From IMG/VR virus record IMGVR_UViG_3300031673_000299, positions 1-32,428 of that record: DNA of 32,428 bases. One strand, written 5' to 3'. The DNA comes from a virus. A program made the position numbers and the translations under genes. A model generated the notes under the pieces. That model was not told the origin of the DNA and did no database searches. It saw only the letters and a list, made by a program, of their open reading frames with translations. Below are positions 2,890 to 29,321 of the stretch, piece after piece (the stretch's first letter is position 1; each line of letters begins with the position of its first letter).

Positions 2890-3930
2890 TCACTCGGTTT
2901 CCTTGAGGTGTTCGTAGAACGCCTGTAGTGTCTCCGCGTCGGCCTTCCCCAGGCTCGTCGGGTGTTTTCTCCCCGATTCCATGCACCACGCTACCAGCGC
3001 CAACAACGCCTTCCCCTCGGTGCCGAACTTGTCGGTCAGCCAGACGCGGATGTCCGTTGCTCCGTCCGTGTCGGCGGGTGTGGCGGCGGGTGTCTCGGTG
3101 GGGGCCTCCGCGGGTTCTTCGGGCGGCTCGTTCTGTATCCAATCACAACCTGATCGCGTCTTTGTCCTGGAGTCCCAAGTGCTGTTGTCACAAGCCCAGA
3201 AGCGCGCACCATCGGATTTGCGCTCTCGCCCCACCAGTGTACCGACACCACACTTCGGACAGTTGCCCGATGCGCTGCCATTGCTGGCGGGCTTGCCATC
3301 CTCTTCCTGCTCCCAACTCTTTGGGGCCAGGAAGAAGGCAGTCACTCCGCAGGCCTCCTGGATCGCCCGGACCATCGCCCGTTTCTGGGCGCGGGCGGCG
3401 ACGTTTCGAGTAGTGGAACCGAAGTCTACCGCGAGCGCGTCGGTGAGTTCCTTGTCCTCGCCCGACCATTCGCAGGAGTCGCATTCCAAGATCGACTTCT
3501 TCTCTTTGTGCCGATGCACGGTACGGAGGCACACGGGGCAGGCCCGCCGCCGGAAGCACGCCTCCAGGCTAGAAGCGAACCCATCGGTGTCCCAGAGGTC
3601 GCGCCCCGTCGTTCTGCTGAACACCGTCACCTTCACGGTGATCTCGACGAGTTCTGCGCCGCGGTCAACCGCCGACAGAAGCTCATCGCGCTTGGCCCGG
3701 ACGCCATAGTTGAACAGGCCGGCCAGGAGCTCCGCTCCGCCCTTCCAGAGGAACGGCTTGGGAACTCCGGGAATGGTGCCATAGTGGACACCCTTCTTCA
3801 TCACCGCAGAGATGAAGGCCTCGACGTTCTGTATCTGCGCCTGCGTCCGCGCCGGGTCAATGGCGGCCAATTGCGCGGCCGACGCGGGCAGGCCCGTCTC
3901 TGCGTCTCGGTATTTCTCCAGCTCGCTCAC
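2890..3930 (-). CDS. Candidate single-strand annealing / recombination protein with two zinc clusters (346 aa)
   Basis: The N-terminal domain carries a signature I know from a widespread phage family: MKKGVHYGTIPGVPKPFLWK (residues 44-63), then an ELLAGLF-like segment, a beta-rich stretch and a TRNVAARAQKRAMVRAI helix (174-190). Members sit beside phage exonucleases and are suspected annealing proteins; that role is inference. A CPVC...CDSC cluster (131-153) interrupts the domain and a topoisomerase-type C4 finger (C224, C227, C247, C262) follows. Next come a Pro/Glu/Thr-rich linker and a C-terminal helical tail. Start: GTG at 3930, in a GTGA overlap with the nuclease gene and with AAGGAGG 7 bases upstream. 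It probably acts with the Cas4-like nuclease just upstream. Confidence 0.75.
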   Translation of the reverse strand: MSELEKYRDAETGLPASAAQLAAIDPARTQAQIQNVEAFISAVMKKGVHYGTIPGVPKPFLWKGGAELLAGLFNYGVRAKRDELLSAVDRGAELVEITVKVTVFSRTTGRDLWDTDGFASSLEACFRRRACPVCLRTVHRHKEKKSILECDSCEWSGEDKELTDALAVDFGSTTRNVAARAQKRAMVRAIQEACGVTAFFLAPKSWEQEEDGKPASNGSASGNCPKCGVGTLVGRERKSDGARFWACDNSTWDSRTKTRSGCDWIQNEPPEEPAEAPTETPAATPADTDGATDIRVWLTDKFGTEGKALLALVAWCMESGRKHPTSLGKADAETLQAFYEHLKETE

Positions 3931-5033
3931 TGTTGAGCCTCCTTGATCGTGGTCCGCCATGATCCGGTCTTCGTCTGCTTTCGGCTGATAAGCCACTGCC
4001 CACAACGCCAAGTCCCCTCCTGCTCCACGCGCTCGAACCGGGCCTTGATCGCCTTATCCGTCGCGTTGTAGGTCCGCACGATCTCGGCATAGCCGGCGCG
4101 CGTCAGCAGGTGGCCTTCAAGGTCGGCGTCCTGAATCACCGGATGGCCTACCCACTCCGTTTCGGGCGCGCAGATGTGGACGAAATCGCACGAGGGGCAG
4201 ACATTCTCGTCGAACTTCATTCGGGCTGGTTCCAGGTTCGCGTCCAACGCGTTGTAGACGCGTTCGGCGCTTTGGAGTATGCCTTCGCAATATTCATGGT
4301 CGAGTTCGATGGGAAGGAAGTCGATCTGCCCCGATTCTTTCCCCCGCAGGGCAAGCAGGCCCTCCTCCGCGTTCTGCATGAGCAGGTAGAGTTGCATCTG
4401 TGCGGGGTACTTGCGGAGCCATACCTGCGGAGCCGTTATCAGGTCACGCCAGTTCTCGATGCTTTCTGCGCGGCCGTAACTCAGGCCCTTGTGTTCGCAT
4501 GGGATCTGTCGGCGGCCCAGCCACTTGCCGGTCACGTAGAAGTCCATGCGTCCGCTGATAAGCCGATGGCGGCCTCCGCGGACGAGGACATTGACCGGCT
4601 CCTCGGCGCGAATGACCTGGAAGCCAGCCTCTTCGATATCTGCCTTGCTCGCGGCCGCCTCCAGGTGGCCCTGGTCAAAGAGGGCCTGCAATCCTGGCCG
4701 AGGGGGCAATCGGTCATCCCAGCGGGCGATCTCGTAGAACTTGCAGCGGTCACAGGAGTGGCCCGCCGATGATGCCCAGATGTTCGTCGGGCGCGACCAT
4801 CGGAATTTCGCATCCTTTGTTTCGCGGATGTCGGCCTCAAGGCGTTCCGCGATCTCGGCGATAGTCATTGACTCTGCGGCAGCAGTAAGACTTTGTGTCT
4901 TGCCAGCTCTCTCGGCCCGTTCGCGCTCTATCTCGCGTAGGGCCTGCGGATCGGCTGGAATATCTTCGCTGCCTGCTTCTAGCCCAGGCAGTTCCTCGAC
5001 GGCAGGGAACGTCTCGTGGACGCTCTCGCTCAT
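3927..5033 (-). CDS. Cas4-like PD-(D/E)XK exonuclease with Fe-S cysteines (368 aa)
   Basis: A RecB/Cas4-type nuclease of a phage recombination module. Visible in order: a variable N-terminus; C94-x2-C97 (CDRC); the nuclease core with D164 in GRMDFYV, E180 and K182 in CEHK, and Q212/Q214 in YPAQMQLYLL (motif QxxxY-like); and the C-terminal trio C279, C282, C288. One N-terminal plus three C-terminal cysteines is the Cas4/AddB iron-sulphur arrangement. Such enzymes resect DNA ends to give single strands. It has ATGA and GTGA overlaps on both sides, so it is co-translated with the coiled-coil protein and the annealing candidate. The ATG at 5033 was chosen over far longer in-frame starts. Confidence 0.85.
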   Translation of the reverse strand: MSESVHETFPAVEELPGLEAGSEDIPADPQALREIERERAERAGKTQSLTAAAESMTIAEIAERLEADIRETKDAKFRWSRPTNIWASSAGHSCDRCKFYEIARWDDRLPPRPGLQALFDQGHLEAAASKADIEEAGFQVIRAEEPVNVLVRGGRHRLISGRMDFYVTGKWLGRRQIPCEHKGLSYGRAESIENWRDLITAPQVWLRKYPAQMQLYLLMQNAEEGLLALRGKESGQIDFLPIELDHEYCEGILQSAERVYNALDANLEPARMKFDENVCPSCDFVHICAPETEWVGHPVIQDADLEGHLLTRAGYAEIVRTYNATDKAIKARFERVEQEGTWRCGQWLISRKQTKTGSWRTTIKEAQQ

Positions 5034-5785
5034 CGCCTTCCTCCCGTCCGCCGCGGTTCCAATGTGCTGTAGACGCGCACCCCGGGGATGTTCGTTTGCC
5101 CCTTGAGGGCCTGCACCACCTTGCCGATGGCCGATTCGTTGACCGTCAGATACTCTCGGGGGATGGCCTGAGCGTCCATGACCTCGAACTTCCAGACCTC
5201 CACCATCGCCCCGGCGCCGGAAACCTTCGGTGCCGACAGTACGGGGATAAAGGGCGTGGATACCTCGGCCACAGGTGCGGCCTCGATGGGGGCTTCCAGC
5301 AGCTCCGCGGCCTTCGCCTTGTCGCCTGCCGCCTCTGCGGCGACCGCTTCCTGTAATCGGCGTTCCTCGGCTTCCTTCTGCGCCTTGTCCTGCGCTTGGC
5401 GGCGAAGTTCGACTGCCACCTTCTCGGCTTCCTCGCGAGCCTTGCGCTCCACCTCTGCCTGAATGCGGCGCTTCTCCGTTTCCCATACCGAGAGTTTGCC
5501 GCGCACGATCTTATCCGGTTCGTTCAGGCGGTCAAGGTGGCCGGCCTCCTGCGCGCAGACGGCCTTCCAGGCACCGTGCGCGCCCATCTTCGATGGCTTG
5601 AAGTCGGCCTCGATGGCCTTCTTCAGTGCGCCGATGCCGTTCACGATCTCCCAGGCGTGCTTCTCCCCGTCGAGGGAATCAACGACGAGGTGCTGGGCCT
5701 CTACCAGCAGGCGGTTGTGGCGTACCTCGATCTCCCGCTCTTGCGCCTCGCTCACGGGAACCAACGCTGTGGCTGTCATCGTCAC
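5030..5785 (-). CDS. Coiled-coil protein of the phage recombination module (251 aa)
   Basis: The N-terminal helical domain is followed by a long Ala/Glu/Lys/Arg/Gln-rich coiled coil (roughly residues 105-185). The C-terminal segment has the motif IPREYLTVNESAIGK...IPGVRVY. That ending (YLxxxxxAI, then IPGVRVY) is one I recognise from hypothetical phage proteins encoded next to Erf/RecT-type recombination genes; the exact biochemical role is unknown to me. Start: GTG at 5785 shares GTGA with the upstream stop and has GGAGGT 5 bases upstream. ATG at 5779 is the alternative. It precedes and overlaps the nuclease gene (ATGA). Confidence 0.75.
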   Translation of the reverse strand: MTMTATALVPVSEAQEREIEVRHNRLLVEAQHLVVDSLDGEKHAWEIVNGIGALKKAIEADFKPSKMGAHGAWKAVCAQEAGHLDRLNEPDKIVRGKLSVWETEKRRIQAEVERKAREEAEKVAVELRRQAQDKAQKEAEERRLQEAVAAEAAGDKAKAAELLEAPIEAAPVAEVSTPFIPVLSAPKVSGAGAMVEVWKFEVMDAQAIPREYLTVNESAIGKVVQALKGQTNIPGVRVYSTLEPRRTGGRR

Positions 5786-7083: not shown

Positions 7084-7483
7084 CGTTACCTCCTATGGGC
7101 GTCAGCCCGTTTCGTTGGAAGGCCCGCTGGAAGGCGGCCGCGAGCGCGACACTGCTAGGGTCGTTATCCCGCAGGAGACGGCCGGCCGGGGGTTGGATGG
7201 GGTCAGGGGGGTGTAGTGGAATGCGGCCGGCCGTCTGCGGGTGCCGCCGAGGGCTCCCAGCGGGCAAGTGCGCTGTGGTGTGTCCTGCCGGGCGAGAGGG
7301 TCGCAACCCAGATCGACCTAGGCTACGACCCCCTCGCGCCGACCGGGCCAAGGAGGGAGGCATGGTGAGGCAGGGGGGGGCGGACGACTGCGAACGCTGC
7401 TGCCTATGCTCCGTCGCCTGTTTGTCCGGGTCCGCCCCGGGCGTGGATTCATGGGGTCGGTAATGCGGCGCGCAAGGCTTCAC
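7076..7483 (-). CDS. Doubtful reading frame, Pro/Arg/His-rich (135 aa)
   Basis: This frame fills the otherwise 396-base gap between the HTH gene and the membrane-protein gene. In favour: it starts in a GTGA overlap with the HTH gene, and its last 30 residues (around SSVALAAAFQRAFQR) look protein-like. Against: the first 100 residues are low-complexity and rich in Pro, Arg, His and Ser, and the span holds a long inverted repeat and an 8-base G run. It may instead be a non-coding regulatory or origin-like segment with only a short 3' gene. Confidence 0.35.
   Translation of the reverse strand: MKPCAPHYRPHESTPGADPDKQATEHRQQRSQSSAPPCLTMPPSLARSARGGRSLGRSGLRPSRPAGHTTAHLPAGSPRRHPQTAGRIPLHPPDPIQPPAGRLLRDNDPSSVALAAAFQRAFQRNGLTPIGGNGD
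7176..7236. repeat. 13-bp inverted repeat containing two GGCCGGCC sites
   Basis: AGACGGCCGGCCG (7176-7188) and CGGCCGGCCGTCT (7224-7236) are perfectly complementary with a 35-base spacer. Each arm holds the palindrome GGCCGGCC. It sits just downstream of the early regulator gene in a span with poor coding character, where a replication, partition or antitermination site could lie. No such function can be read directly. Confidence 0.6.
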
Positions 7484-7734
7484 CGATTCCCCTCCGCCGC
7501 AAGGTCCTGAATGGTCTGGCGGAGCCTTGCGTACTCAGCCTTTGAGAGTCGGCGGCCGCCGGGGAGAATCCCCCGGCAGACCTCGCTCAACCAGCCGATG
7601 CTTACCTCTGCGCGATCCGCCACCCGAGTAAGTGTGACGCCCCTATGGCGGTTCCGATTGATCAGGACGCCGAGACTCCTCAATTGGGGCCTGGAGGCGC
7701 TTCGAACGCTGTCTGTGGCCGAACTGGTACTCAT
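7480..7734 (-). CDS. Cro-like HTH regulator, first gene of the early operon (84 aa)
   Basis: A small DNA-binding protein with a Cro/CI-type helix-turn-helix at residues 30-56 (LTRVADRAEVSIGWLSEVCRG), encoded divergently from the repressor. By position it is the Cro counterpart that would turn down the repressor. I chose the second ATG (7734), which has GAGGT 6 bases upstream. The first ATG (7752) lies about 7 bases from the predicted transcript start and has no ribosome site. The C-terminal helix is charged and could dimerise. Confidence 0.75.
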   Translation of the reverse strand: MSTSSATDSVRSASRPQLRSLGVLINRNRHRGVTLTRVADRAEVSIGWLSEVCRGILPGGRRLSKAEYARLRQTIQDLAAEGNR

Positions 7735-7765
7735 TCGCCTACCTCTACTCATAATTCCACTAGTA

Positions 7766-7795
7766 CCTATACCACGTCGGGCAGGTTCTTGTCAA
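7766..7795 (-). promoter_or_regulatory. Early leftward promoter
   Basis: A perfect -35 TTGACA (7795-7790) and -10 TATAGG (7771-7766) are separated by 18 bases on the minus strand. Transcription would start near 7759 and give a leader of about 25 bases before the HTH gene start at 7734. It faces the repressor promoter. Confidence 0.8.
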
Positions 7796-7843
7796 GGCCC
7801 CAGACGAAAAAAGTTCATCCGGCACACCCGGTCCTGTGGTATA
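7768..7843. promoter_or_regulatory. Candidate operator pair in the divergent switch
   Basis: TATACCAC (7768-7775) and GTGGTATA (7836-7843) are an exact 8-base inverted pair, 60 bases apart. Each overlaps the -10 box of one of the two facing promoters. Shared sequence at both promoters is what one expects if one regulator binds both. The binding protein is inferred, not shown. Confidence 0.5.
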
Positions 7844-7845
7844 CT
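7840..7845 (+). promoter_or_regulatory. Repressor promoter -10 box, leaderless arrangement
   Basis: TATACT lies 6 bases before the repressor ATG (7852), so transcription would begin at or within a base of the A of the start codon. No Shine-Dalgarno site precedes the ATG. No good -35 hexamer lies 16 to 18 bases upstream, which suggests the promoter may need activation, as lambda PRM does. Confidence 0.65.
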
Positions 7846-7851
7846 GGTGTC

Positions 7852-8532
7852 ATGCGGGAAGATCGAGCTGGATTTAGCATGGACTTCGGCAGCTTCGTCA
7901 AGGGGCGCCGGGGTAGTCAAGGCCAACTGGAATTCGCGAGTGTTGCGGGTACCAGTATCAGTCAGCTCAGCCGAATGGAGAACGGGTATGTGCCACCCAA
8001 GAAAGGTCTGGTCAGGATTGCCGCCAACCTGGGTGACGATCCCGCCGAATGGCTGGAGGCGGCTGGCTACGCTCCGCCAGAGGGAAAGGCCCCGGAACGG
8101 GAGCGGGAGATATCCGGGGGGCGTCCGGTCCTGCCCTCGGATGCAAGCCTGCCCGTGAAGGGCACTCTCCACGGGGGGACCATAACCGATGCCGCCGAGG
8201 AGAACAGCGACTACTTCCCTGCGCTCGAAGAGCGCTCGGCGCGGGCAGACTACGTGGTCCGGATCGAGGGCCACAGCATGAGCCCGATGCTGATTCCGGG
8301 CGATTTCGCGGCGGTACGGAAGGCCTCCACCGCGCAGGCTGGCGATCTGGTCGTCGCCAAGCAGGATGATGATAGGTATGTGAAGTGGTATATGGGGTGC
8401 CAGGGCGGTGTCGTCCGGCTGGAAAGCGAGAACCCAGCCTATGAACCGACCGAGAGCAATGAGATAGAGATCATCGGCGTGGTCGTGTGGAGCCACAGGC
8501 CTGAAGAAGGATTGAAGAAGAGGCGAGAGTAG
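7852..8532 (+). CDS. CI/LexA-type phage repressor with S24 peptidase domain (226 aa)
   Basis: It maintains lysogeny and is probably destroyed in the RecA response. Residues 22-45 form an XRE-type helix-turn-helix. Residues 100-215 are a peptidase S24 domain with the nucleophile Ser142 in GHSMSPML and the base Lys178 in VKWYM. The expected self-cleavage bond falls in LPVKGTLHGGT (residues 100-110), where Gly108-Gly109 stands in place of the usual Ala-Gly or Cys-Gly. Upstream in-frame codons lie in the promoter region, so ATG 7852 is the start. It is divergent from the Cro-like gene and first in the rightward lysogeny block. Confidence 0.9.
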   Translation: MREDRAGFSMDFGSFVKGRRGSQGQLEFASVAGTSISQLSRMENGYVPPKKGLVRIAANLGDDPAEWLEAAGYAPPEGKAPEREREISGGRPVLPSDASLPVKGTLHGGTITDAAEENSDYFPALEERSARADYVVRIEGHSMSPMLIPGDFAAVRKASTAQAGDLVVAKQDDDRYVKWYMGCQGGVVRLESENPAYEPTESNEIEIIGVVVWSHRPEEGLKKRRE

Positions 8533-8558
8533 ACGCAGGAATAAGAGGAGGAGAAGAG

Positions 8559-9035
8559 ATGCGAAAGATGGCGATGGCTTTGTTGGTGGCGGCGGCGGGG
8601 GTACTGTCCCTTGCCGCGGTAGATGTGTGGGCCCAGGTCTTCGGCGTTCACGAGCCGGGCAGCGTGTACTTCTCCGATGTGGTGGCCGGTAGTGCCGGCG
8701 ACGAGCACATCGGGTGGCTGGCTGAATCCGAGGTGACCGGGGGGTTCCCGGACGGAACTTACCGGCCCAACGACTATGTGACGCGCGAGCAGATGGCGAT
8801 CTACTTGGCGCGACAGCGGGCGGTTTCTACTATTGATACACTATTGCTTTGTGACCTGGCGTTCGGCGGTGTCGATTGGGGCAGTATCTTCGGGGTGCCG
8901 GGCGGATTGACCCAGGCGCAGGAAGACGAGAACTGGCAGCAACTCGAACACGGACTCGCCAACGCCCAGGCCCTAGGCGGCGAGATCACGTTGCCGCACG
9001 CGGTCAACTTCTGGAATGCCTGGGAATTGCCCTGA
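8559..9035 (+). CDS. Secreted SLH-domain protein (158 aa)
   Basis: A signal peptide (1-25, ending DVWA-Q) is followed by one S-layer homology domain (37-86). Typical residues are FSDV, IGWLAESEVTGG, DGTYRP and VTREQMAIYLAR. SLH domains anchor proteins to pyruvylated wall polymers or to outer-membrane partners. The C-terminal 70 residues have no recognised fold. One SLH copy is fewer than the usual three, so trimerisation or assembly with host SLH proteins may be needed. GAGGAGG lies 8 bases before the ATG. It sits directly after the repressor in the same direction, so it is probably expressed in lysogens and alters the host surface; that is inference. Confidence 0.85.
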   Translation: MRKMAMALLVAAAGVLSLAAVDVWAQVFGVHEPGSVYFSDVVAGSAGDEHIGWLAESEVTGGFPDGTYRPNDYVTREQMAIYLARQRAVSTIDTLLLCDLAFGGVDWGSIFGVPGGLTQAQEDENWQQLEHGLANAQALGGEITLPHAVNFWNAWELP

Positions 9036-9106
9036 GAATCCATGCTATCGGCTAAACTTGCTGGAGCGAGGCCGCGCTCTGGCTTGAATAGGCCAAGGAG
9101 GGGCTG

Positions 9107-9445
9107 ATGAGAAGGCTGTCGGTTGTTCTGTCGTGCGTGTTGCTTCTCGGGGTGTCGTGCGGGTTGCTTCTGCTGGTGAATGCCTGTGCTCCCAAGTCGC
9201 CTTACTCGGGCGATGTTCCGACGGCCCGGGTGACCGACCACGGAGCACCAGCAGATAGACCCGAAGTTGCACCGCAAGTCCCCGAACGCGCCACGGAGGA
9301 TGTACAGGACATCGTGCACGCCACGAGAACGGGCAAGCGTTACCACCGCGCGGGTTGCCGCCATCTCGCGAAGTCCGACATCCCCATGAGCCGGGCGGAC
9401 GCCGAGGCGAAGGGGCTGACGCCTTGCGGCACCTGCAAACCATGA
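9107..9445 (+). CDS. Exported small Cys/His protein, lipoprotein-like (112 aa)
   Basis: The N-terminus is a hydrophobic export signal ending VNAC (Cys27), a loose lipobox. A Pro-rich linker leads to a compact C-terminal domain (71-112) with the pattern GKRYHRAGCRHL...TPCGTC: H80, C84, H86, C107, C110. I know this domain from the C-terminus of many secreted or competence-type nuclease proteins, where it probably binds zinc; alone it has no known activity. AAGGAGG lies just upstream of the ATG. Its TGA overlaps the ribosome site of the next exported gene. Confidence 0.75.
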   Translation: MRRLSVVLSCVLLLGVSCGLLLLVNACAPKSPYSGDVPTARVTDHGAPADRPEVAPQVPERATEDVQDIVHATRTGKRYHRAGCRHLAKSDIPMSRADAEAKGLTPCGTCKP

Positions 9446-9459
9446 AGGAGGTTGGGAAG

Positions 9460-10263
9460 ATGAGCAGAGGCAAGTGGATCGCTCTAGCTGTTACAATGTA
9501 TCTGGTGGCAATAAGCATTCCGACGGCGTTGGCATCGGCTGAGTGGTATGAAGCGGCGGACGTTCCACTGTCGGCAGCGGACATCGCGTCGGAAGTGGAT
9601 GATCGCCTGAGGGAAGCGCGCGTGAGTGAGCCTGCCGCTATGCCGATGTGGGAAGATGTGACTGCACTCCGTTTGAGGCTAATCCCTGCTGCCCAATTGG
9701 TACTCGAGAGGAACGCAGCAGCAGCGGAAGCAGCGGCGTGGGAGGTTATCGTCCGGGCGTTCCCCGGTCTCCTACCAGAGGGGCAAATGGTGCTGCAGTG
9801 CCCGACGTGCGGCGAACGACGGCTGTCCGCTAGGGCAGTATCCGATCCGAGGGTCTTCGCCCTAGCTAACTGTGGTGCACACGTGAGCGTGCCTAAGCCG
9901 ATGGTCGAGACCGACGTCCTCGTCCTCTGTGCCCTCTGCGGCCGGAGCGAGCGGGCGATGTGCCGCGTGCAGGAGGGCCCGCGGAGGATGGTGGGTTATT
10001 GCTCTGCGAAACAGTGCCAATGGACCAGTGAACTTGAGCAGAAGCACCCGGATTGGGGCAGGAATGTCTGCGTGCTGATTGGCCTGCACAAGATTCGCAT
10101 AGGGATGACTACCCAACAAGTCAGGGAATCTTGGGGCTGGCCCGGCCATATCAATACCACAATCACACGCTGGGGGCGTCACGAACAGTGGGTGTATGGT
10201 CGATTCCCATACAGTGAGTATGTGTACTTCGAGAAGGGCATAGTCACTACGATTCAACAGTGA
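9460..10263 (+). CDS. Exported Cys-rich protein with BamE/SmpA-like C-terminal domain (267 aa)
   Basis: An export signal (1-27, ending ALASA) is followed by a helical region. A Cys-rich part (114-186) holds CPTC, CALC and further single cysteines, suggesting one or two zinc ribbons. The last 60 residues read KIRIGMTTQQVRESWGWPG...EQWVYG...YVYFEKGIVTTIQ. This is the pattern of the BamE/SmpA-OmlA fold, a small domain of envelope lipoproteins. The ATG at 9460 was chosen because AAGGAGG lies 8 bases upstream. Combining zinc ribbons with this fold in a phage is unusual. Function unknown; action at the cell envelope is inferred. Confidence 0.7.
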   Translation: MSRGKWIALAVTMYLVAISIPTALASAEWYEAADVPLSAADIASEVDDRLREARVSEPAAMPMWEDVTALRLRLIPAAQLVLERNAAAAEAAAWEVIVRAFPGLLPEGQMVLQCPTCGERRLSARAVSDPRVFALANCGAHVSVPKPMVETDVLVLCALCGRSERAMCRVQEGPRRMVGYCSAKQCQWTSELEQKHPDWGRNVCVLIGLHKIRIGMTTQQVRESWGWPGHINTTITRWGRHEQWVYGRFPYSEYVYFEKGIVTTIQQ

Positions 10264-10285
10264 ACCATCTTGAGAATGAGGTGCT

Positions 10286-11785
10286 ATGGCTAGCGGTGTG
10301 ATGAGCGGTCCCGTCCCCGCCGTCATCTACGCCCGGGTCTCGACGGAAATGCAGGCCACGGACGGCGGCGGTCTCGACGACCAGCTCCGGGTCTGCCTCG
10401 CCACCTGCGAGGCTCAGGGCTACACCGTCCTCGGGATCTTCCGCGATGAGGGTTTCAGCGGCGCCATCGAGGATCGCCCTGCCTTCCAGCAGGCCCTCGC
10501 AGCCGTTCCGCCCGGCGGCGTCCTTGTCGTCTCGCAGTATGATCGCCTGAGCCGCGATGCCGCCTTCCGCCTCGGGTTGCCCGGGGAACTCTCGGGTCGG
10601 AACGTGGCGATTGAATCCCATTCCCAGGGGCGCGTCGATGTCGACAGCCCCAGCGGATTCCTCGCCTATGCGGTCGACGCCGTATTCTCCGAGACGCTAC
10701 GACGCGTGATCAGCGACGCCACCAGGCGGGCCTTCCAGCGGCACCGGCGAGAGGGCAGGCAGCACGGCGGGAAGGCCCCCTATGGGTACGAGTGGGGAGA
10801 AGAGAAGCAACTCCTGCCGCGGACCGATGAGGCCGAGGTGGTGCAGCGGATCTTCGAGTGGGCGGCGGAGGGCTCAGGGGTCGCCAAGGTCGCCAGTCGG
10901 CTCAGTGGAGAGGGTGTGCCTCGGCCGGACGGGTCCTCCGAGGCCTGGCTGGACATAAGCGTCAAGCACATCATTCGCAACCCTGTCTACGTCGGGCGCG
11001 TCGCCCACTGCTACGAGAAACGCTCCCGGGTGGGGCGAAGTCCGGTCTGGCAGAAGCTCCCGCCTGATCGCTGGACGATCCATGAGGGCAAGCACCCTGC
11101 CATCATATCCCGCGAGTTGTGGGATCGAGTGCAGTCGCTGGTGCGCGCACGATCCTGGCACGCGCCCACAAACTACGGGCACCAGTTTCTGCTGACGGGG
11201 CTTCTGCGCTGCCCTTACTGCGGCGGGAGGATGAACGGCTGCCACCTCTTCACGCCTACCGGCCGCTATGCCGTGTATCGGTGCTCGCGCCAGGTCCACA
11301 CTCATACCTGCCGCGGAGTCTGCCGCAGCGCTCGGAAATGGGAGACGGCCTTCCTCGATGACCTGGAGCGGATTCTGGCCGGCGATGCCATCCTGGGCCA
11401 AACCTGGTGCTACGGGATGCCACAGCGAAAGAGCCTGCCGGCTGAAGCCGAGATCGCCGCCCTGGAAGCCCAGCAGCAGCGGGTCGCCGGGGAATTGGCA
11501 ACCGGGGATTGGCCGCGCGAGGTACTACTGAGGGAGATGGGCCGGTTCGAGGCCCGGCTGGAGCGGTTGCGCGCGAGCGTGGCGGATGCCGAGCAGGAGA
11601 ATCAGGGCGAAGAGGAACCGCCCGCCGTCCTCTCCGGTCTGCGTGAGGTGCTGACGTCGCCCGAGGTGCCGATGGCCCGGAAACGTGCCGTCCTGGCTGA
11701 AGTCGTACAGCAGATCGACTGGCAGAATGGGGCGTTGCACACGACGTTCCGACCGGAGGTCTACGCGACAACCGACGAAACGTGA
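10286..11785 (+). CDS. int: Large serine recombinase (phage integrase, 499 aa)
   Basis: It integrates and excises the phage by site-specific recombination. The resolvase domain (12-145) has the catalytic Ser19 in YARVSTEMQ and the SQYDRLSRD motif (83-91). The recombinase domain follows (about 160-285, starting KAPYGYEW). Then come a zinc ribbon with C309, C312, C333 and C342, and a Glu/Leu/Arg coiled coil (about 405-455) of the type that controls directionality. The ATG at 10286 has GAGG nearby. It is the last rightward gene and converges on the small-gene cluster. The attachment site was not identified with confidence. Confidence 0.95.
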   Translation: MASGVMSGPVPAVIYARVSTEMQATDGGGLDDQLRVCLATCEAQGYTVLGIFRDEGFSGAIEDRPAFQQALAAVPPGGVLVVSQYDRLSRDAAFRLGLPGELSGRNVAIESHSQGRVDVDSPSGFLAYAVDAVFSETLRRVISDATRRAFQRHRREGRQHGGKAPYGYEWGEEKQLLPRTDEAEVVQRIFEWAAEGSGVAKVASRLSGEGVPRPDGSSEAWLDISVKHIIRNPVYVGRVAHCYEKRSRVGRSPVWQKLPPDRWTIHEGKHPAIISRELWDRVQSLVRARSWHAPTNYGHQFLLTGLLRCPYCGGRMNGCHLFTPTGRYAVYRCSRQVHTHTCRGVCRSARKWETAFLDDLERILAGDAILGQTWCYGMPQRKSLPAEAEIAALEAQQQRVAGELATGDWPREVLLREMGRFEARLERLRASVADAEQENQGEEEPPAVLSGLREVLTSPEVPMARKRAVLAEVVQQIDWQNGALHTTFRPEVYATTDET

Positions 11786-11845
11786 CCTCCTTTCCTATCT
11801 TGTCGCGTACGCTTCTAGGTGCGCACTATGATGGTTCGGCGGCGG
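11786..11845. other. Convergent gap after the integrase; possible attP location
   Basis: This 60-base gap between the ends of two converging genes has two self-complementary octamers close together, GCGTACGC (11805-11812) and GTGCGCAC (11819-11826). Attachment sites of serine integrases are short and usually lie beside the integrase gene, so this is a candidate by position only. I see no T-run or clear terminator. Confidence 0.3.
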
Positions 11846-12064
11846 CTACGATTCTCCTTCTGCGATTTGTCGCTCCAGGGCCTCAATCCGTTCAACGTGT
11901 GCTTGGATCGGGCGCACGCCGTTTTCCCAGCGGTGGATATTCCACCAGGTGGTGCCGAGGCGCACGGCCAGTTGCTGTTTCGAGAGCGGTTCGCCCGGTT
12001 CGCCGAGGGCCTCCCGCAGGGCCAGTAGCCGTTCGGGGATGCTTCGGGGCTTAGGTCTGGACAT
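11846..12064 (-). CDS. Small XRE-type HTH protein (72 aa)
   Basis: The helix-turn-helix at residues 27-53 (LSKQQLAVRLGTTWWNIHRWENG) fits the XRE family and is followed by a helix suited to dimerisation (HVERIEALERQIAEGE). The ATG at 12064 overlaps the stop of the preceding gene by 14 bases; longer in-frame starts would cover that gene. It is last in the small-gene cluster and converges on the integrase. It may regulate the cluster promoter or integrase, which is inference from position. Confidence 0.8.
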   Translation of the reverse strand: MSRPKPRSIPERLLALREALGEPGEPLSKQQLAVRLGTTWWNIHRWENGVRPIQAHVERIEALERQIAEGES

Positions 12065-12356
12065 GGGGCGGCTCCTGCTTGACCCTCTCCACCATTGCCT
12101 GATGGCCCGCAATGGCTTCTTCTTCCGTTGAATAACGGTTCTGTTCCTGATCGAGGGTTCCGCCGAAGACCAGTGTCTCAAAAATGAGAGGAGGCCCTCC
12201 TGGCCCGAATCGGTGATCGAGCCCGAGCCAGACGGTTGATATGAGCACGTTGCCGACGTCTGTCCGCCGAACGATCTTCTGTTCCTGGTCCTCGAAAGCC
12301 TTGGCCCACTCCATGAGTTTGCACGGGCTTCCATCCCTGCGATAGTATCTAGCCAT
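12051..12356 (-). CDS. Hypothetical protein of the small-gene cluster (101 aa)
   Basis: Not recognised. The N-terminal basic segment ARYYRRDGSPCKLMEWAKAFED leads to a beta-rich centre (NVLISTVWLGLDHRFG...IFETLVFGG) and a C-terminal helix. The order DGxPCKLMEWAKAFED...VGNVLISTVWLGLDHRFG resembles small phage proteins of unknown function that I have seen in early regions. The ATG at 12356 has AAGGAG upstream and follows one copy of the GGGC hairpin leader. Confidence 0.7.
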   Translation of the reverse strand: MARYYRRDGSPCKLMEWAKAFEDQEQKIVRRTDVGNVLISTVWLGLDHRFGPGGPPLIFETLVFGGTLDQEQNRYSTEEEAIAGHQAMVERVKQEPPHVQT

Positions 12357-14037: not shown

Positions 14038-14454
14038 TCACTCTTCCCCGTAGGCCTTGAGCAGCGCGCAGGTGATGGCCTCGCAGGTGCGTTCCTCGGC
14101 ATCGGAGCGCCACTCGTCGAGAACCTTGCCGGCCGTGCCGAATGCGCCGGCCCCCCGTTCGCAGGCCAGCGTCAGGGGCGCGAGCAGCATGTGAACCACC
14201 TCGTGGCAGGCAATGTCGTTCTGTGGGGCCGCCTCCGGGTTATACTCGACGATGGCGTGACGATAGACGTACTGGTCCTGCTGGGTTACCGCGCTATACT
14301 GCGTACCCGTCAACTCCTCCGAGGCCTTGACGGATACGATCCATCCGGGCTCGTGCGGAATCAGTACGCGCTTGACCCACTTCTGAATCAGTCCATCCCA
14401 ACTATTGGCACGGCGACCAGCCGCAGGCGTGGCAGATTTGGCATGCCGACTCAT
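14038..14454 (-). CDS. Small putative zinc metalloprotease with HExxH motif (138 aa)
   Basis: The helix CHEVVHMLL gives a zinc-binding HEVVH motif (residues 84-88). Glu121 or Glu125 in DAEERTCEAI could be the third ligand, as in gluzincins. The upstream strand (YRHAIVEYNPEAAPQNDIACHE) resembles the edge-strand layout before the active helix in SprT- and ImmA-like phage peptidases. Substrate unknown. The gene begins in an ATGA overlap with the phosphoesterase gene, so the two are co-translated. It sits in the late transcript but beyond the lysis genes. Confidence 0.7.
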   Translation of the reverse strand: MSRHAKSATPAAGRRANSWDGLIQKWVKRVLIPHEPGWIVSVKASEELTGTQYSAVTQQDQYVYRHAIVEYNPEAAPQNDIACHEVVHMLLAPLTLACERGAGAFGTAGKVLDEWRSDAEERTCEAITCALLKAYGEE

Positions 14455-15497
14455 GGACGACCTCCATCCCGCAGTCGGGACACAATATCGGCGGCGACCT
14501 CAATTCCTCGGATGCACTGCATCTCGTGTCGGTCAGGCCAGAAGATGATAACGGGGATGGTGGGCTGGGATTCCCCGAAGTCATGCGAGTCTGAAAAGTT
14601 GTCATAGGGTTTGTAGCTTCCTGGCCGGACGAGGATGCTGTGCTTTCCTTCATGCTCTACCTCTTGAATGCCGAAGATGTGTTTGTCGGCATGCGCCACC
14701 ACGTCATAATGCCGATCAAAATACAGGGTGCGGATGTTGCTGTGCGTCGGGTTCCACTGACTGGTCCCACGGGCCTTGTGGCGAACCGCGATCTCGTATT
14801 GCTGCTCGCCGACCTGCAGGTGGATGGTGCCGCCGTGTCGCAGGTACGGAATCTTGAAGTCGTGACTCAGCCATTCCACGGGGTCAAAGGCGGCCATCTG
14901 GCTTGCCCAATGGTCGTGCTGTCCGGTCACGTCGCCAAGGACTTTGCCCTGCAGGTATTCCCGATAGGAGGCCCAGACATAGTGGCGTTGTATCTTGACG
15001 GGAACCAAGGCCTCTTGCGCCCCATCCTGCATGGTTGGCTTGATGAACGCATCGCAGAAGTCGCCCAGCTCCGCGGTGTAGAGGCCGGCGGTATCCCGGA
15101 TGATCGCATTGTCCCGCCGGAGTAGTTTGTACAGCGTGTTCTTATTTCCCGCGTGCCAGTCACCGCGGAAGGCCACCGCGATGGGCTGATCGGTGGCGAT
15201 TACGACAGGTACCTCGCGCTGCGCGGTATCCCACTTCTGGTGTTGTTCGGCTGCCGTTTCGAGGAAGTCTAGCAATTCCGTCGGGTCTGGCGGATACTCC
15301 TTCAAGCCCGGAAACTCAGGCGCCACATGGCCGGACTGCGCGGCCGGGGATCGGCCATTCCTGTCTCGGAGCACCCCCGCGTCCCGCACGATCTTTCGCA
15401 CGCAATAGAACGTGAGCCCGAGGTCGTCACGGATGCGGTCAAGGGAATCGCCCCGCGCATAGCGCGTGAGGACCTGCTCGGTAATCGCTGGGTCCAT
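14451..15497 (-). CDS. HTH-calcineurin-like metallophosphoesterase (348 aa)
   Basis: Residues 1-45 form a small helix-turn-helix (RYARGDSLDRIRDDLGLTFYCVRKIV). The rest is a calcineurin-like phosphoesterase: D113/H115 in FRGDWHAGN, D146 in LGDFCD, H194-D195 in TGQHDHW (Gln replaces the usual Asn of GNHD), H240 and H269. Such metal enzymes act on nucleic acids or nucleotides. A DNA-binding N-terminus points to a nuclease or DNA-end function, which is inference. GGAGGT lies 6 bases before the ATG. A strong hairpin separates it from the lysis block, so it may be expressed differently. Confidence 0.8.
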   Translation of the reverse strand: MDPAITEQVLTRYARGDSLDRIRDDLGLTFYCVRKIVRDAGVLRDRNGRSPAAQSGHVAPEFPGLKEYPPDPTELLDFLETAAEQHQKWDTAQREVPVVIATDQPIAVAFRGDWHAGNKNTLYKLLRRDNAIIRDTAGLYTAELGDFCDAFIKPTMQDGAQEALVPVKIQRHYVWASYREYLQGKVLGDVTGQHDHWASQMAAFDPVEWLSHDFKIPYLRHGGTIHLQVGEQQYEIAVRHKARGTSQWNPTHSNIRTLYFDRHYDVVAHADKHIFGIQEVEHEGKHSILVRPGSYKPYDNFSDSHDFGESQPTIPVIIFWPDRHEMQCIRGIEVAADIVSRLRDGGRP

Positions 15498-15566: not shown

Positions 15567-15977
15567 TTAGAGCGCCACGCCAAAGCTAGCGAAGACGCCT
15601 ACACCCGCATCCGTGATGTAGCACAGCCCAGCCCGCGCCGCCGTGCGCGAACCCTCTGCCTCGTACAACGGCAGGCTCACGCCGACCGCGAGCTTCACGT
15701 CGTTCATGTCCGTCGGCAAGCCCAGGGAACCCTTGCTGTGCAGCAGTAGATGGCCCTGGAGGTTCGCGCCGACGTACTGCGGGATTGTCCCCAGGCTAAG
15801 CGATTCCGGCTCCTCGATAGGCAGAGCCTTGCCGCTGAGGTCATAGGCGAGGAATGAACCTGTCCCGCCCGACAGCGGTTGCACGATGGCGATACCGCCG
15901 GACTCGAAGAGTAGGCCCTCCGCCTGCGCCGGCACCGCCAGACACAGCAGTACGGCAAACAACACTAACAGTCTCAT
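15567..15977 (-). CDS. Secreted hypothetical protein, beta-rich (136 aa)
   Basis: A clear signal peptide (1-19, LLVLFAVLLCLAVPAQA) is followed by about 115 residues of alternating Gly-rich and hydrophobic stretches (FLAYDLSG, VKLAVGVSLPLYE, GLCYITDAGVGVFASFGVAL). The look is that of a small beta structure, possibly membrane- or surface-associated. AAGGAG lies 7 bases before the ATG, and the start overlaps the previous stop as ATGA. Its place after the cell-wall hydrolase suggests a lysis or envelope role, which is unproven. Confidence 0.7.
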   Translation of the reverse strand: MRLLVLFAVLLCLAVPAQAEGLLFESGGIAIVQPLSGGTGSFLAYDLSGKALPIEEPESLSLGTIPQYVGANLQGHLLLHSKGSLGLPTDMNDVKLAVGVSLPLYEAEGSRTAARAGLCYITDAGVGVFASFGVAL

Positions 15978-16699: not shown

Positions 16700-17008
16700 T
16701 CATCCTTCTTTCCGGCGGGTGCGGTGAGCGCAGTCCGAGATGATCGCCGCCAGACCCTTCACTTCGTTGCAGGTGTCCTGGAACGCTTCGGTCATTGGCC
16801 CCAGGTGGTTCTGGAGGAAGGCCCGGTTGTTCTCGGACTCCTGCCTGAGGGCCGCGAGGAAGTCAACCCGCGCGGCCGCACCATCCTCGCGATGCCGATT
16901 GACGATTCGCTCGAATCGGTAGAGCAGGAGCGCGGCGAGAAGCAACGCGCCGCCCATCGGCACCCCCAGGGCTTTGATTAGTTCGATGTTTAGCAGTCCG
17001 GTGTCCAT
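16700..17008 (-). CDS. Holin-like small membrane protein with coiled coil (102 aa)
   Basis: One transmembrane helix near the N-terminus (about residues 10-30, KALGVPMGGALLLAALLLY) is followed by a charged helical domain (RFERIVNRHREDGAAARVDFL and following) typical of a coiled coil. Size, topology and position directly before the NlpC/P60 endolysin are those of a phage holin or XhlA-type lysis partner. GGGGG lies about 8 bases before the ATG. Confidence 0.65.
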   Translation of the reverse strand: MDTGLLNIELIKALGVPMGGALLLAALLLYRFERIVNRHREDGAAARVDFLAALRQESENNRAFLQNHLGPMTEAFQDTCNEVKGLAAIISDCAHRTRRKEG

Positions 17009-21458: not shown

Positions 21459-22318
21459 GTCCCCAACTCGTCGATGATATTCAGAGTCAACCGCACTTCC
21501 TCCGCGACGCCGAAGCTCGCCGGGCCCACGGTGATAGCACCTCCGCGGGTCGACGGCACGACCGTCTGCCGGGCGGTGACGTCCGCGATGATGGCCTGGT
21601 AGAGCTGGCCGTCGTCCAAGTCCACCTGATAGACCACGCCGCCGCCCTGCGCATGACACAACCCGCGCAGAATGCAGAACTGCCCTCCCTGCCAGGCTGT
21701 CGCCGACAATTCCCCGGCGAGCGGGCCCCAGGCCCCGGCGGTATACTTGGCGTAGCCAGCACCCGCCGCGGGTGTACCCCCCCATTGAACCTGTCCCGCC
21801 CCCAGCATGTCCTCGCCCGAGAGGACGAGCCATGCAATCGCGGGGTCGCAGGGGTAGGCGATGGGGGCATAGACCTCGTGGGCCTCCCATGCTACGCCGA
21901 TGGTGGTTGCGTCAATGTGTCCGATGATGCCGAGGCGCGTTGTCGGCACACCGCCAGTATCCTCCCAGACCTCGACGCGGAGCTGGCCGGTAACTGCCCC
22001 GACGGCCTGAAGCCATAGGCGTGCGGCGGATACGGCGTTGAAGGCCGGCACCGGTATGCGATAGGCTAGGCTCTCCCCAAGGACCAGATTGTCGCACATT
22101 ACGTTGACGTCGCCATAAGTGCGAACGATGGCGATGGCATAGCCGGACGGCAGGGCGTCCCACTCCAGGCGCACTTCGTCGTCGCCGGGGTGTCCCGCTA
22201 GGGAATGCGCGATGACGCCCGTCAACGTTGGCTCGACGGCCAACCTGGGCCTGCGTGACACGGGCCGCCATCCGGGACGCGGTCCATGGTGCCAATTATC
22301 GTAGTTGCCGATCCTCAT
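21455..22318 (-). CDS. Distal tail-like protein (287 aa)
   Basis: Called mainly from position: it starts in an ATGA overlap with the tape-measure gene and leads into the hub gene. The sequence is beta-rich throughout. A central jelly-roll-like part (RLWLQAVGAVTGQLRVEVWED, TIGVAWEAHEVYAP, AIAWLVLSGEDM, WGGTPAAGAGYAKYTAG) resembles the lectin-like folds inserted in distal tail proteins. The first 30 residues are Arg/Trp-rich. It may add carbohydrate binding at the tail tip. Confidence 0.6.
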   Translation of the reverse strand: MRIGNYDNWHHGPRPGWRPVSRRPRLAVEPTLTGVIAHSLAGHPGDDEVRLEWDALPSGYAIAIVRTYGDVNVMCDNLVLGESLAYRIPVPAFNAVSAARLWLQAVGAVTGQLRVEVWEDTGGVPTTRLGIIGHIDATTIGVAWEAHEVYAPIAYPCDPAIAWLVLSGEDMLGAGQVQWGGTPAAGAGYAKYTAGAWGPLAGELSATAWQGGQFCILRGLCHAQGGGVVYQVDLDDGQLYQAIIADVTARQTVVPSTRGGAITVGPASFGVAEEVRLTLNIIDELGT

Positions 22319-24963
22319 TGCATTCTCCGCCCATACCAGGAGATTTCGTCCCCGAGAGAATCCGTCAGGCGCTGCGAGAGACGGCGGAGGCCCCGATCAT
22401 CGAGATTGTCCACCGAGACGGTGACGTAGACGGGGCCGACACCAGCCCCGAACGCCGCCCTCGGACCCGTCAACGGAATGACCGCCTCCGGGCCCCTCTC
22501 CCCAATCATCGCAACCGTCGGGCGAGTCACAATGCCACCATGCTGGAGGCCGGGAATTAGAAAACTGGCACCAGCCATAACCGCCGCCGCCGAGGCCATC
22601 GTCGCAGCCGCCGCGATCATTCCCGCCGAGGCCGTCCCCATCAAGGTGCCTGCTGCAGCATTCGTGACGGCGGCCGCCTGCGCGAGGGTTGCCGCCCCTA
22701 CATTTGTCGCTGCCGTGGTCGCGTTGCTCACGGCGGTTTTGACTTCTACTCCCGCGGCCGCTACAGCCTGCAGGGAAGCACCCACCCATTGGCCCAACGG
22801 ACCCGGAAGTGCGGTGGCCGCGGCCGTCCAGGCATTCATTGCTCCCGTAAGTTGAGTCGCCGCCTGCTGGCCCGCCAGTTGCTGACCGAAAGCCGCGTTG
22901 GCTTCCTCCTGCCGACGTATCTGGACGGCCTCGGTGATGCGTTGCTGAATCTCCTCGACCATCTCCCGCGAGATCATCTCCAGCAGGGCCTGCTTGACCA
23001 TGCCCGCGATTGCATTGACGGCGTCCTTGAAGCTATTGAGACTGGACACGAGGCGCCCCAGGCCTTCGGCCCATTGCGCCTGGATGCGCTCCCACATCGT
23101 CCCGTAAGTGTCGATGATGTTGGTAGCGGTTTCCTCGGCGGCGGCCGGCAGGCTCTCCAAACCGAGCGCCTGCGCGGTAATGCCAACCCCGGGCGCGCCA
23201 AACATCATGCCAGCGAAAACCAGGGAAAGGCGTTGCGCGACTTCTATGGCGTCCTCGATACCCTTGGTAAGATGCTCCCGCACCGCCCTGTCTACGGCGT
23301 CCGCACCATCCTCCATGCGCCTCCACATATCCTCCGTGGTATTGACCAAATCCTCAAATAGATCGCTGATGTTCTCCATGCCCGGGGCGATTGCGTCGAC
23401 GTAGAATCGCTTATAGACATCGGTAGCGGTTATCACCGTGTCTATCATGCGCTTCCACATGGCGTCGACATTCTCAAGGGCTAACTCGTAGCCAGCCCAT
23501 GCATCCACCCCGGCCACGAGGAGCGCGTGCAATACCTTCTGCGCCTCCGCAAGATCGGCGGTCGCCGCGACATAAGCTGGAGTGCCTTTCGCCAGTAGCG
23601 ACAGTTCCTTCTGGAGTTGTTTGACGGCTTCCCTGGCCTCGTCGACGCGGGTCTTGAACTCCTTAGTCGCACCACCAGCATTGTCAGTTACAGGAGCTAC
23701 CGCCGCGACTTTCGCCGTATAATCGTCAACGGCTTTGCCGGCGGCCTTGAGGGCATCCTCATATTCGCGCCGCGCAGCATCTACCGCACGCCGCAGCATA
23801 TTGGTGGTTCCCCTGTAGACGGGGCCCGCAGCGAGTGCGGCTTGTGCGGCCGTCAGCTTTTCCAAGGCTTCCGCGGCGCGTAGGACTTCAGGTGTTTGCG
23901 CGATAGGCCCAAGCATCCGCACCCGCGCCACCTTATCCATCGAGTCCGCGAGTGCCTCCGACGCCTTCTGCATCGCCCAGATACTGGCTATCGCTATGGT
24001 CAGCGCAATAACAATGCCCGCTGGCCCCGTCAGTATGGTAACAACCGCGGCGATGCCGGCCATAAGTTGAGGCAGGATAAGCAGGATGCCGCCGATAGCG
24101 GTTGCCAGGAGGCCGACTTTCGCAGTCATGGTTGCAATGCTCTGGGTCAGTTTGGGATTCTCTCTGACCCAAATGCCGATGGTATCAATCGTCTCCGTCA
24201 ACTGCTCTATGAGGTCCTTACCCTCTGGCAGCAAACCCTCGCCAATGGCGACCTGCAACTGGAAGAAGGAGTCGCGGAGGTTTGACAGTCGGCCCTCAAG
24301 CGTCTTGCTCGTCTCCTCCATGGTGCCGCGGAAGCGCTCGATAAGCTTGATCGCTGCGGGGAAGAGGGCCTGCCGATTGATAACCTCGCCAGTCTTTGTG
24401 AACTCGACGCCGAGTGCGGCGAAGTCTTCTTTGACGAGCCCGAGGTTTACCGCGACCTGCTCCGTCTCGAACATCCCTGCCTTGAGCTTCGCGAGCGTGG
24501 CAATCACGCGAATCATCGGCTGGTTCATCGCAGCCGCGGTATCACCAAACACCGTCATTGTTTCCGAGATAGAGCCCAGACTGAGCCTCATGGCCTGCAC
24601 CATGATGTCGGCTTCGATGATACCGGGCAGGTCGAACGGCGTCTTGGCGGCGAAGTCGACCAGTTCCTTGAGGCGCTCTTGGGCTGCCTTTGCCGAACCC
24701 GTCAGGACCCTGAACTGCGCCTCGTAGCGTTCCATCTGGCCCGCGGCACTCAGGAAGGACCGCGTCATCAGCAGGGCCCCGGCGCCAGCACCGGCCATGG
24801 CAAGCCCAAGCCCGCGTATCTGGGCCTGATGATCCTGGACGAACCTGTTCATTCGGCCCATGCTGCGCTGCGTTTGCTGCTCGACGGCCTTCAGCGCCTT
24901 GACGGCCTTGTCATAGCGCAGTTCAATTGTGCCGACTACCGAGCCGGCATCGAAGCCCGCCAT
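22315..24963 (-). CDS. Tape measure protein (882 aa)
   Basis: It sets tail length and helps DNA entry. The N-terminal 270 residues are long helices (YDKAVKALKAVEQQTQRSMGRM, MTVFGDTAAAMN) of the tape-measure type. Then come strong hydrophobic segments (VGLLATAIGGILLILPQLMA, AGIVIALTIAIASIWAM), Ala-rich helices and a C-terminal GLQHGGIVTRPTVAMIGERG motif before EAVIPL, diagnostic for the family. At 882 residues the tail should be roughly 130 nm if about 1.5 angstrom per residue applies. It begins one base after the chaperone T stop. Confidence 0.92.
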   Translation of the reverse strand: MAGFDAGSVVGTIELRYDKAVKALKAVEQQTQRSMGRMNRFVQDHQAQIRGLGLAMAGAGAGALLMTRSFLSAAGQMERYEAQFRVLTGSAKAAQERLKELVDFAAKTPFDLPGIIEADIMVQAMRLSLGSISETMTVFGDTAAAMNQPMIRVIATLAKLKAGMFETEQVAVNLGLVKEDFAALGVEFTKTGEVINRQALFPAAIKLIERFRGTMEETSKTLEGRLSNLRDSFFQLQVAIGEGLLPEGKDLIEQLTETIDTIGIWVRENPKLTQSIATMTAKVGLLATAIGGILLILPQLMAGIAAVVTILTGPAGIVIALTIAIASIWAMQKASEALADSMDKVARVRMLGPIAQTPEVLRAAEALEKLTAAQAALAAGPVYRGTTNMLRRAVDAARREYEDALKAAGKAVDDYTAKVAAVAPVTDNAGGATKEFKTRVDEAREAVKQLQKELSLLAKGTPAYVAATADLAEAQKVLHALLVAGVDAWAGYELALENVDAMWKRMIDTVITATDVYKRFYVDAIAPGMENISDLFEDLVNTTEDMWRRMEDGADAVDRAVREHLTKGIEDAIEVAQRLSLVFAGMMFGAPGVGITAQALGLESLPAAAEETATNIIDTYGTMWERIQAQWAEGLGRLVSSLNSFKDAVNAIAGMVKQALLEMISREMVEEIQQRITEAVQIRRQEEANAAFGQQLAGQQAATQLTGAMNAWTAAATALPGPLGQWVGASLQAVAAAGVEVKTAVSNATTAATNVGAATLAQAAAVTNAAAGTLMGTASAGMIAAAATMASAAAVMAGASFLIPGLQHGGIVTRPTVAMIGERGPEAVIPLTGPRAAFGAGVGPVYVTVSVDNLDDRGLRRLSQRLTDSLGDEISWYGRRMQ

Positions 24964-28312: not shown

Positions 28313-29320
28313 TCAGGCCACCCCCAGGCTCGTCACGCGTCGCCCCAAGCGACCCTGGAGAGCGGCGATGTCGGGGACAACTTCGGCGGAGCTTGACATC
28401 TCGCGCATCGGTTCGAGCATCCTCCGCTCTTCCATCAACTCTCTATTGACGCCGATGAGGGAATGCCCGCAGTCCGGGTGGAGCGGCGTCTTATGCTGGG
28501 GTTGTAAGATCGGAAAGCCTGGCGTCCTGCCCGTGATGGAGAATGTCTTGCCTTGCAGGGGCAGGCAGATCGTCGGGCAAGCGCCGCTGTGGACACTCAT
28601 CTGCATGAGGTCCTGTCCCGCCGAGAGGGTTCGTGCGATGGACCCTTCGGTTGCGGCCTGCCGGGTCGCCGTGCGCGCCACCATCTCGCCATAGTGTTTC
28701 ATCGTATAGTGGCGCAACTTGCCATCCTTACACATGACGGCGATCATCTCGCCCCGCGCCGTGCGCTCAAGTTCCAGCCGCAGAGCATCCGGTACGTAGC
28801 CCTTGAGCCTCGCCGAAGCGCCATCCATCAGCGTTTGCTTGATACGTCGCCCCAATTCATCGGGCCCCAACCCCTCGACGATGCCCTCGGCGATCAGTCG
28901 GGCGATCTGCTGCTCTGCCACTAATGCCTGCTGCGTATCTATCCAAACGCTTCGGGCAAACGGCGCGATGCTCTGCAAGGCCTGCGAGGTGTCCGCCATC
29001 ACGCGGGCTATGGCGGCCTGCGCGCCCTGCCTGTCGATCAGGGTCATCGAAGGCAGCACCGGCAACCGCATGGCCCCGTTCGACAGCAGCATCCCGTGTC
29101 GGTACGCCCGCGGCAGGTGCAGGTTGCACCAGCCCTCCTGGTGCTGTTCGAGCGCGCGGACGATGGAGTCGATTTGCTGCAGAAGCAACTGCGTGCGGCG
29201 ATATTCGAATGGGGTGGTAGCCGCCCGTGCGAGAACGGCCTCCAGGCGCGCCTCCGCCTGCTCGTAGAAGCGCACGAGGGACGGCACCATCTCCTCGAAC
29301 ATCGAGACGTCTATGGGCAT
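28313..29320 (-). CDS. Phage minor capsid / head morphogenesis protein (335 aa)
   Basis: Matches the minor capsid family: a helical N-terminal half, then ARTATRQAATEGSIARTLSAG and HSGACPTICLPLQGKTFSITG, and HPDCGHSL with the Cys/His set (CPTIC...HPDCGH) usual in the Mu gpF / SPP1 gp7-type domain. It helps head assembly or DNA entry. I take ATG 29320, one base after the previous stop; GTG 29368 would overlap the connector gene by 47 bases. Its place downstream of the capsid gene is less common, since it usually follows the portal. Confidence 0.8.
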   Translation of the reverse strand: MPIDVSMFEEMVPSLVRFYEQAEARLEAVLARAATTPFEYRRTQLLLQQIDSIVRALEQHQEGWCNLHLPRAYRHGMLLSNGAMRLPVLPSMTLIDRQGAQAAIARVMADTSQALQSIAPFARSVWIDTQQALVAEQQIARLIAEGIVEGLGPDELGRRIKQTLMDGASARLKGYVPDALRLELERTARGEMIAVMCKDGKLRHYTMKHYGEMVARTATRQAATEGSIARTLSAGQDLMQMSVHSGACPTICLPLQGKTFSITGRTPGFPILQPQHKTPLHPDCGHSLIGVNRELMEERRMLEPMREMSSSAEVVPDIAALQGRLGRRVTSLGVA

Positions 29321-29321
29321 C

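Follow-up and report, generated by a model that had tools for sequence, protein, structure and literature searches.

Among the closest described systems are Ltp of the S. thermophilus phage TP-J34 and lactococcal Sie2009, both exported or membrane-anchored lysogeny-module products encoded beside the repressor and integrase genes (PMC3952083, PMC7693887). The ltp gene is transcribed in the prophage and its product blocks DNA injection (PMC3952083), and Sie2009, encoded in the same slot, protects lysogens at DNA injection (PMC7693887). The pneumococcal proteins SzaL and SpaL are surface zinc proteins of the lysogeny module with a reported effect on prophage activation (PMC12637031). Prophages also encode secreted DNA-acting proteins that lower transformation, namely YokF of SPbeta and Dns of Campylobacter; the DNase YokF cuts transformation about tenfold (PMC4774983), an effect of advantage to prophages at risk of deletion by recombination. 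Although genes placed between a repressor and an integrase are likely expressed in lysogens, few of them have an assigned function.

The cassette analysed here (P1, P2 and P3) is a variant of this already known kind (Ltp, Sie2009, SpaL/SzaL). As in the Ltp/Sie-type layout, exported genes lie between the repressor and the integrase on the same strand. The likeness to Ltp and Sie2009 is one of position and export, and P1-P3 differ in having SLH, Ada-like zinc and BamE/BLIP modules; that to SzaL/SpaL is one of surface zinc proteins in a lysogeny module. Unlike the YokF type, none of P1-P3 has a nuclease domain (Pfam search; no PF00565), whereas related cassettes include P2 domains joined to an SNase. 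What deserves pursuit is the wider pattern: an Ada-like module, exported and lacking the acceptor, encoded between repressor and integrase.

The window, a 32,428-base IMG/VR record analysed over its whole length, is a temperate tailed phage with head and tail genes on the minus strand and a lysogeny block on the plus strand. The features referred to below are:

30221-31240, minus strand: capsid
28313-29368, minus strand: minor head protein
22315-24963, minus strand: tape measure
7480..7752, minus strand: small ORF of 90 aa, divergent from and facing the repressor gene; possible Cro-like regulator, judged by ORF and position only
7753..7878: divergent intergenic region, from the layout the expected site of the lysogenic promoter and operators
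7879..8532, plus strand: CI/LexA-type repressor (P0004) with HTH and S24 peptidase (phrog_4, E=2.9e-26; PF00717, E=1.5e-20)
8559..9035, plus strand: P1 (P0001), Sec signal and a single SLH domain at residues 38-80 (PF00395, E=1.4e-11; homologue in Armatimonadota bin117)
9107..9445, plus strand: P2 (P0002), hydrophobic N-terminus (probable lipoprotein) and Ada-like HxxxC/CxxC zinc module at residues 66-112 (N-Ada profile and fold match)
9460..10263, plus strand: P3 (P0003), Sec signal, helical region, Cys-rich part and BamE/BLIP-fold end at residues 211-267 (phrog_11546; AlphaFold model of the end)
10286..11785, plus strand: large serine integrase (phrog_95, E=6.8e-91; PF00239, PF07508 and PF13408, i.e. 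Resolvase, Recombinase and Zn ribbon)

The five genes from repressor to integrase all lie on one strand with successive gaps of 26, 71, 14 and 22 bp, and P1, P2 and P3 are each preceded by a strong Shine-Dalgarno sequence. No plus-strand terminator was found from 7400 to 12100, and we infer that the repressor through P3 are read as a single operon. Because the three genes hold a lysogeny-module position on the repressor's strand, are closely spaced and lack a plus-strand terminator, P1-P3 are likely expressed in lysogens. The 90-aa ORF had no PHROG match, and the intergenic region at 7753..7878 contained neither a sigma-70 consensus match nor a clear operator repeat. An earlier note on this DNA had described three consecutive plus-strand ORFs ending at 10263, all with export signals and flanked by a repressor and an integrase, and each of these points held up. 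In a crude hydropathy test, N-terminal hydrophobic cores were present in 6 of 38 plausible window genes, and P1-P3 are three of these six and consecutive. A PADLOC run gave no match, and no relatives were retrieved when P1, P2, P3 and the integrase were each searched singly against IMG/VR.

P2 is hydrophobic at residues 4-25, followed by NAC, and is probably a lipoprotein or membrane anchor; a relative (L207:3489-3770) bears a standard LAGC lipobox. The YHxxGCRxL...CxxC pattern pointed out in the earlier note lies at residues 79-112. A profile of P2 relatives matched N-Ada structures (E about 0.005-0.013). Against the Ada family PF02805, P2 itself scored 12.7 bits, under the Pfam cut-off of 23, and a related phage protein (L025:2765-3028) exceeded the cut-off at 30 bits. 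The top three Foldseek matches of the P2 model were N-Ada structures (prob 0.69-0.99, E 0.09-0.25), and the best fold match of the module was the DNA-bound N-Ada 1u8b (Z 4.3, rmsd 2.0, 46 residues, 33% identity). No paper turned up when the literature was searched for phage together with this domain under its Pfam name.

Cys38 of Ada is the methyl acceptor. P2 has the fold of the Ada N-terminal zinc domain and three of its four zinc ligands (C42, C69 and C72 are retained), but His80 of P2 stands at the position of C38, the protein is exported and it is without DNA-repair domains. All 119 distinct P2-type domains collected have His at the acceptor position, a count that is partly built in since the DNA patterns used to collect them demanded YH; the 11 Armatimonadota domains from a protein search, made without a His-containing DNA pattern, have it as well (11/11). 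The P2-type module is basic, with a mean net charge of +4.1 and a positive charge in 93%. Methyl transfer has presumably been lost in the P2 module, zinc binding is probably retained and the module may bind DNA. Since P2 lacks the acceptor Cys, we rejected the view that it works in Ada-type repair.

Phages that carry the P2 domain repeatedly show one gene order: repressor, (ImmA/IrrE), exported proteins, integrase. The slot is occupied as follows:

L024: lipoprotein, membrane-anchored SNase with P2 domain, serine integrase
L025, L028 and L095: P2-like lipoprotein, stalk-domain transglutaminase-like protein, SNase with P2 domain, serine integrase
L030/L031 and L032: the slot order also recurs
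L038: P2-like lipoprotein with an adjoining MBL protein
L044: two lipoproteins, then a tyrosine integrase
L132: stalk, MBL and P2 domain fused
Ruminococcus phage RG-TP1: P2-domain gene between repressor and serine integrase

Within 4 kb, a same-strand integrase lay downstream in 9/23 viral P2-type clusters and 0/36 BamE-end clusters (p=6.5e-5), and a same-strand HTH gene lay upstream in 11/23 and 3/36, respectively (p=1e-3); these counts are of single-linkage clusters in 10-kb windows, with contig ends, from profiles built for this analysis, and the control group of BamE-end exported proteins differs from the P2-type group in host range. P2-type proteins were also found in ordinary bacterial loci, and the domain is not prophage-specific. 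Its recurrence in the slot across unrelated phages is an argument that P2, at least, has been selected.

The partner domains of the P2 module have nucleic acid as their substrate or are similar to ComEC. SNase was identified by Pfam in the P2-domain proteins of L014, L024 and L025, and by inspection the partner in L015 is a NucA-like endonuclease. The matches of the L025 nuclease include SPbeta yokF. In phages A403 (L226:2057-6903) and AP45 (L227:2062-6759), an SNase that ends in a short Ca-binding-like motif (DxDxDG) in place of the Ada-like module lies between repressor/ImmA and serine integrase. As a separate observation, a free-standing P2-like lipoprotein occurs in one slot (L025:2765-5132) together with an SNase bearing the same domain, next to a stalk-domain protein with transglutaminase-like matches.

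At a probability of roughly 0.4, we read P1-P3 as a lysogenic-conversion cassette with exported products that act at the envelope, on incoming phage or transforming DNA. We hold the estimate at this level because the window's cassette lacks a nuclease, and we favour DNA as the target because of the nuclease and MBL partners of the P2 domain. The cassette would be transcribed by read-through from the repressor, so that the three products would be made during dormancy. P1 would bind peptidoglycan or S-layer polysaccharide through its predicted SLH domain, P2 would be held at the membrane's outer surface and expose its zinc module there, and P3 would offer a BamE/BLIP-type protein-binding module beside zinc knuckles. 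The basic Ada-like module of P2 could then bind DNA that reaches the envelope and help to exclude incoming phage or transforming DNA, which would shield the prophage against superinfection or against loss through recombination. The surface location, the DNA binding, the action on DNA and the protective effect are each predictions of this model.

More broadly, exported acceptor-less Ada-like zinc proteins may form a widespread undescribed class of lysogeny-module gatekeepers of DNA crossing the envelope, in prophages of Bacillota, Armatimonadota and others, either free-standing or joined to a nuclease (SNase, MBL or another) and accompanied by swappable surface anchors (SLH, stalk domain, lipoprotein, membrane helix); we regard this generalization as speculative and rather doubtful. 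From a recurring exported zinc domain with nuclease fusion partners follows a concrete hypothesis of how prophages might police DNA entry, and cultured phages of thermophiles and of the gut (A403, AP45, RG-TP1) allow it to be tested.

The relatives of P1 and P2 point to the source of these genes. The best match to P2 in 84,980 species genomes was in Armatimonadota bacterium bin117 (78% over 46 residues); identities of P2 to Armatimonadota proteins were 60-78%, and a second Armatimonadota genome encodes a 93-aa lipoprotein with the P2 layout (73% identity over 48 residues). P1 has a homologue in bin117 with 42% identity over residues 1-117, and at E<=1e-12 it matched bin117 only among 291 Armatimonadota genomes. 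Because relatives of both proteins are found in bin117, the phage host is probably an uncultured Armatimonadota bacterium, and P1 and P2 appear to be of host origin. This would link the phage to a poorly known phylum. Tetranucleotide correlation with the window was highest for the pooled bin117 loci (0.69, next 0.60), which supports this host weakly, the pooled sample being larger. Distant capsid relatives were present in 14 Armatimonadota genomes, and relatives of the cassette were not found in the seven capsid-relative regions that we fetched.

The SLH domain that the earlier note had recognized in P1 scored well above the Pfam threshold (44.6 bits, PF00395 cut-off 20.8). The signal of P1 is classical Sec (VWA|Q). 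Tandem SLH repeats, the usual anchor form, are absent from P1, which has one stretch at residues 38-80.

A TTG within P2, at 9355, would give P3 its longest ORF, but the ATG at 9460 is preceded by AAGGAGG and starts the signal peptide; the start of P3 by sequence is 9460. Its signal is classical Sec (ALA|S or ASA|E). The helical region was modelled with low confidence. P3 has nine Cys from residue 114 onward, including two CxxC pairs. BamE and BLIP folds are protein-binding modules. The P3 end, which the earlier note called BamE-like, matched phrog_11546 (E=1.1e-10), though it scored 12.5 bits against BamE PF04355, under the Pfam cut-off of 23.2. AlphaFold modelled residues 211-267 with pLDDT 91-97 in a fold matching BamE, OsmE and BLIP, and the alignment to E. 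coli BamE (9mgg_E) gave Z 7.0, rmsd 1.5 over 52 residues and 33% identity. P3 differs from such proteins by a classical Sec signal instead of a lipobox and by its extra helical and Cys-rich regions. We do not claim P3 as a BAM subunit, as only the fold is common and it is common also with BLIP and OsmE. Among plasmid matches the BamE end was found on unrelated lipoproteins. Three weak matches, to the P3 end only, were found in the 291 Armatimonadota genomes. On a small viral contig that has minor head, tape measure and Ig-like proteins in common with the window (L056:1-6043), an ORF for a BamE-end lipoprotein-like product adjoins the tape measure gene.

The earlier note had treated the three genes as one set that remodels the host envelope and had proposed a search for co-occurrence. 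No other examined record holds P1, P2 and P3 together, and we rejected a conserved three-gene system. The P3 end was found in 0/31 records with the P2 domain, many of these records being fragments. Export, the lysogeny-module position and the slot precedents (Ltp, Sie2009) are consistent with an action on the envelope, whereas the idea of three genes as one conserved unit did not survive and nothing favoured the suggested change in adhesion; what recurs in the same slot of unrelated phages is the domain type of P2. Any cooperation among P1, P2 and P3 is hypothetical.

It may be instead that the three are unrelated host-derived morons, captured separately and each with a small effect and no joint function. 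P1 and P2 do have chromosomal counterparts in bin117, which lie at loci apart from each other with no recognisable phage genes nearby. The P3 gene has a GC content of 59.2% and a GC3 of 0.66 (neighbours' GC3 0.72-0.81), and this lower GC suggests an origin different from that of its neighbours; a P3-type end also occurs on many unrelated exported proteins with no preference for the integrase slot. The recurrence of the P2 domain type in the slot across unrelated phages speaks against independent capture, and we consider it unlikely as an explanation of the whole cassette.

Two other readings also place the exported proteins at the surface. As sensors of cell density, competence or envelope state, the zinc proteins would tune prophage induction in the manner of SpaL/SzaL, with which the gene order repressor, (ImmA), exported zinc protein is shared, and for which loss alters competence-peptide activation and density dependence (PMC12637031). 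We think this improbable, as P1-P3 contain no known signalling domain (Pfam), Streptococcus phages gave no match to the P2 domain and the repressor here is an S24 repressor, normally RecA-responsive. Masking of the receptor or S-layer would have P1 fill SLH-binding sites and the BamE/BLIP module of P3 bind an envelope protein so that other phages cannot adsorb, with P2 as an accessory. The SLH domain of P1 and the fold of the P3 end are compatible with masking, and certain phages require an SLH-dependent S-layer for infection (PMC9703825). A single SLH domain, the lack of recurrence of SLH in the slot elsewhere (1/31 records with the P2 domain, on an endolysin) and the ordinary chromosomal setting of the close P1 relatives in bin117 make it a poor candidate. 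Exclusion of DNA at the envelope is the reading that we prefer to these three.

Several other features of the window were observed. Two minus-strand exonuclease genes, a Cas4-domain exonuclease (phrog_1990, 3927-5486) and a DNA repair exonuclease (phrog_7339, 14451-15497), lie far apart. The weak matches of the tape measure to two RecBCD-inhibitor families (phrog_4790, phrog_6234) are probably artefacts of coiled-coil sequence. In the late region, a 136-aa ORF on the minus strand (15567-15977) has a strong signal peptide (MRLLVLFAVLLCLAVPAQAEG) and lies near a possible holin-like membrane ORF (16700-17008).
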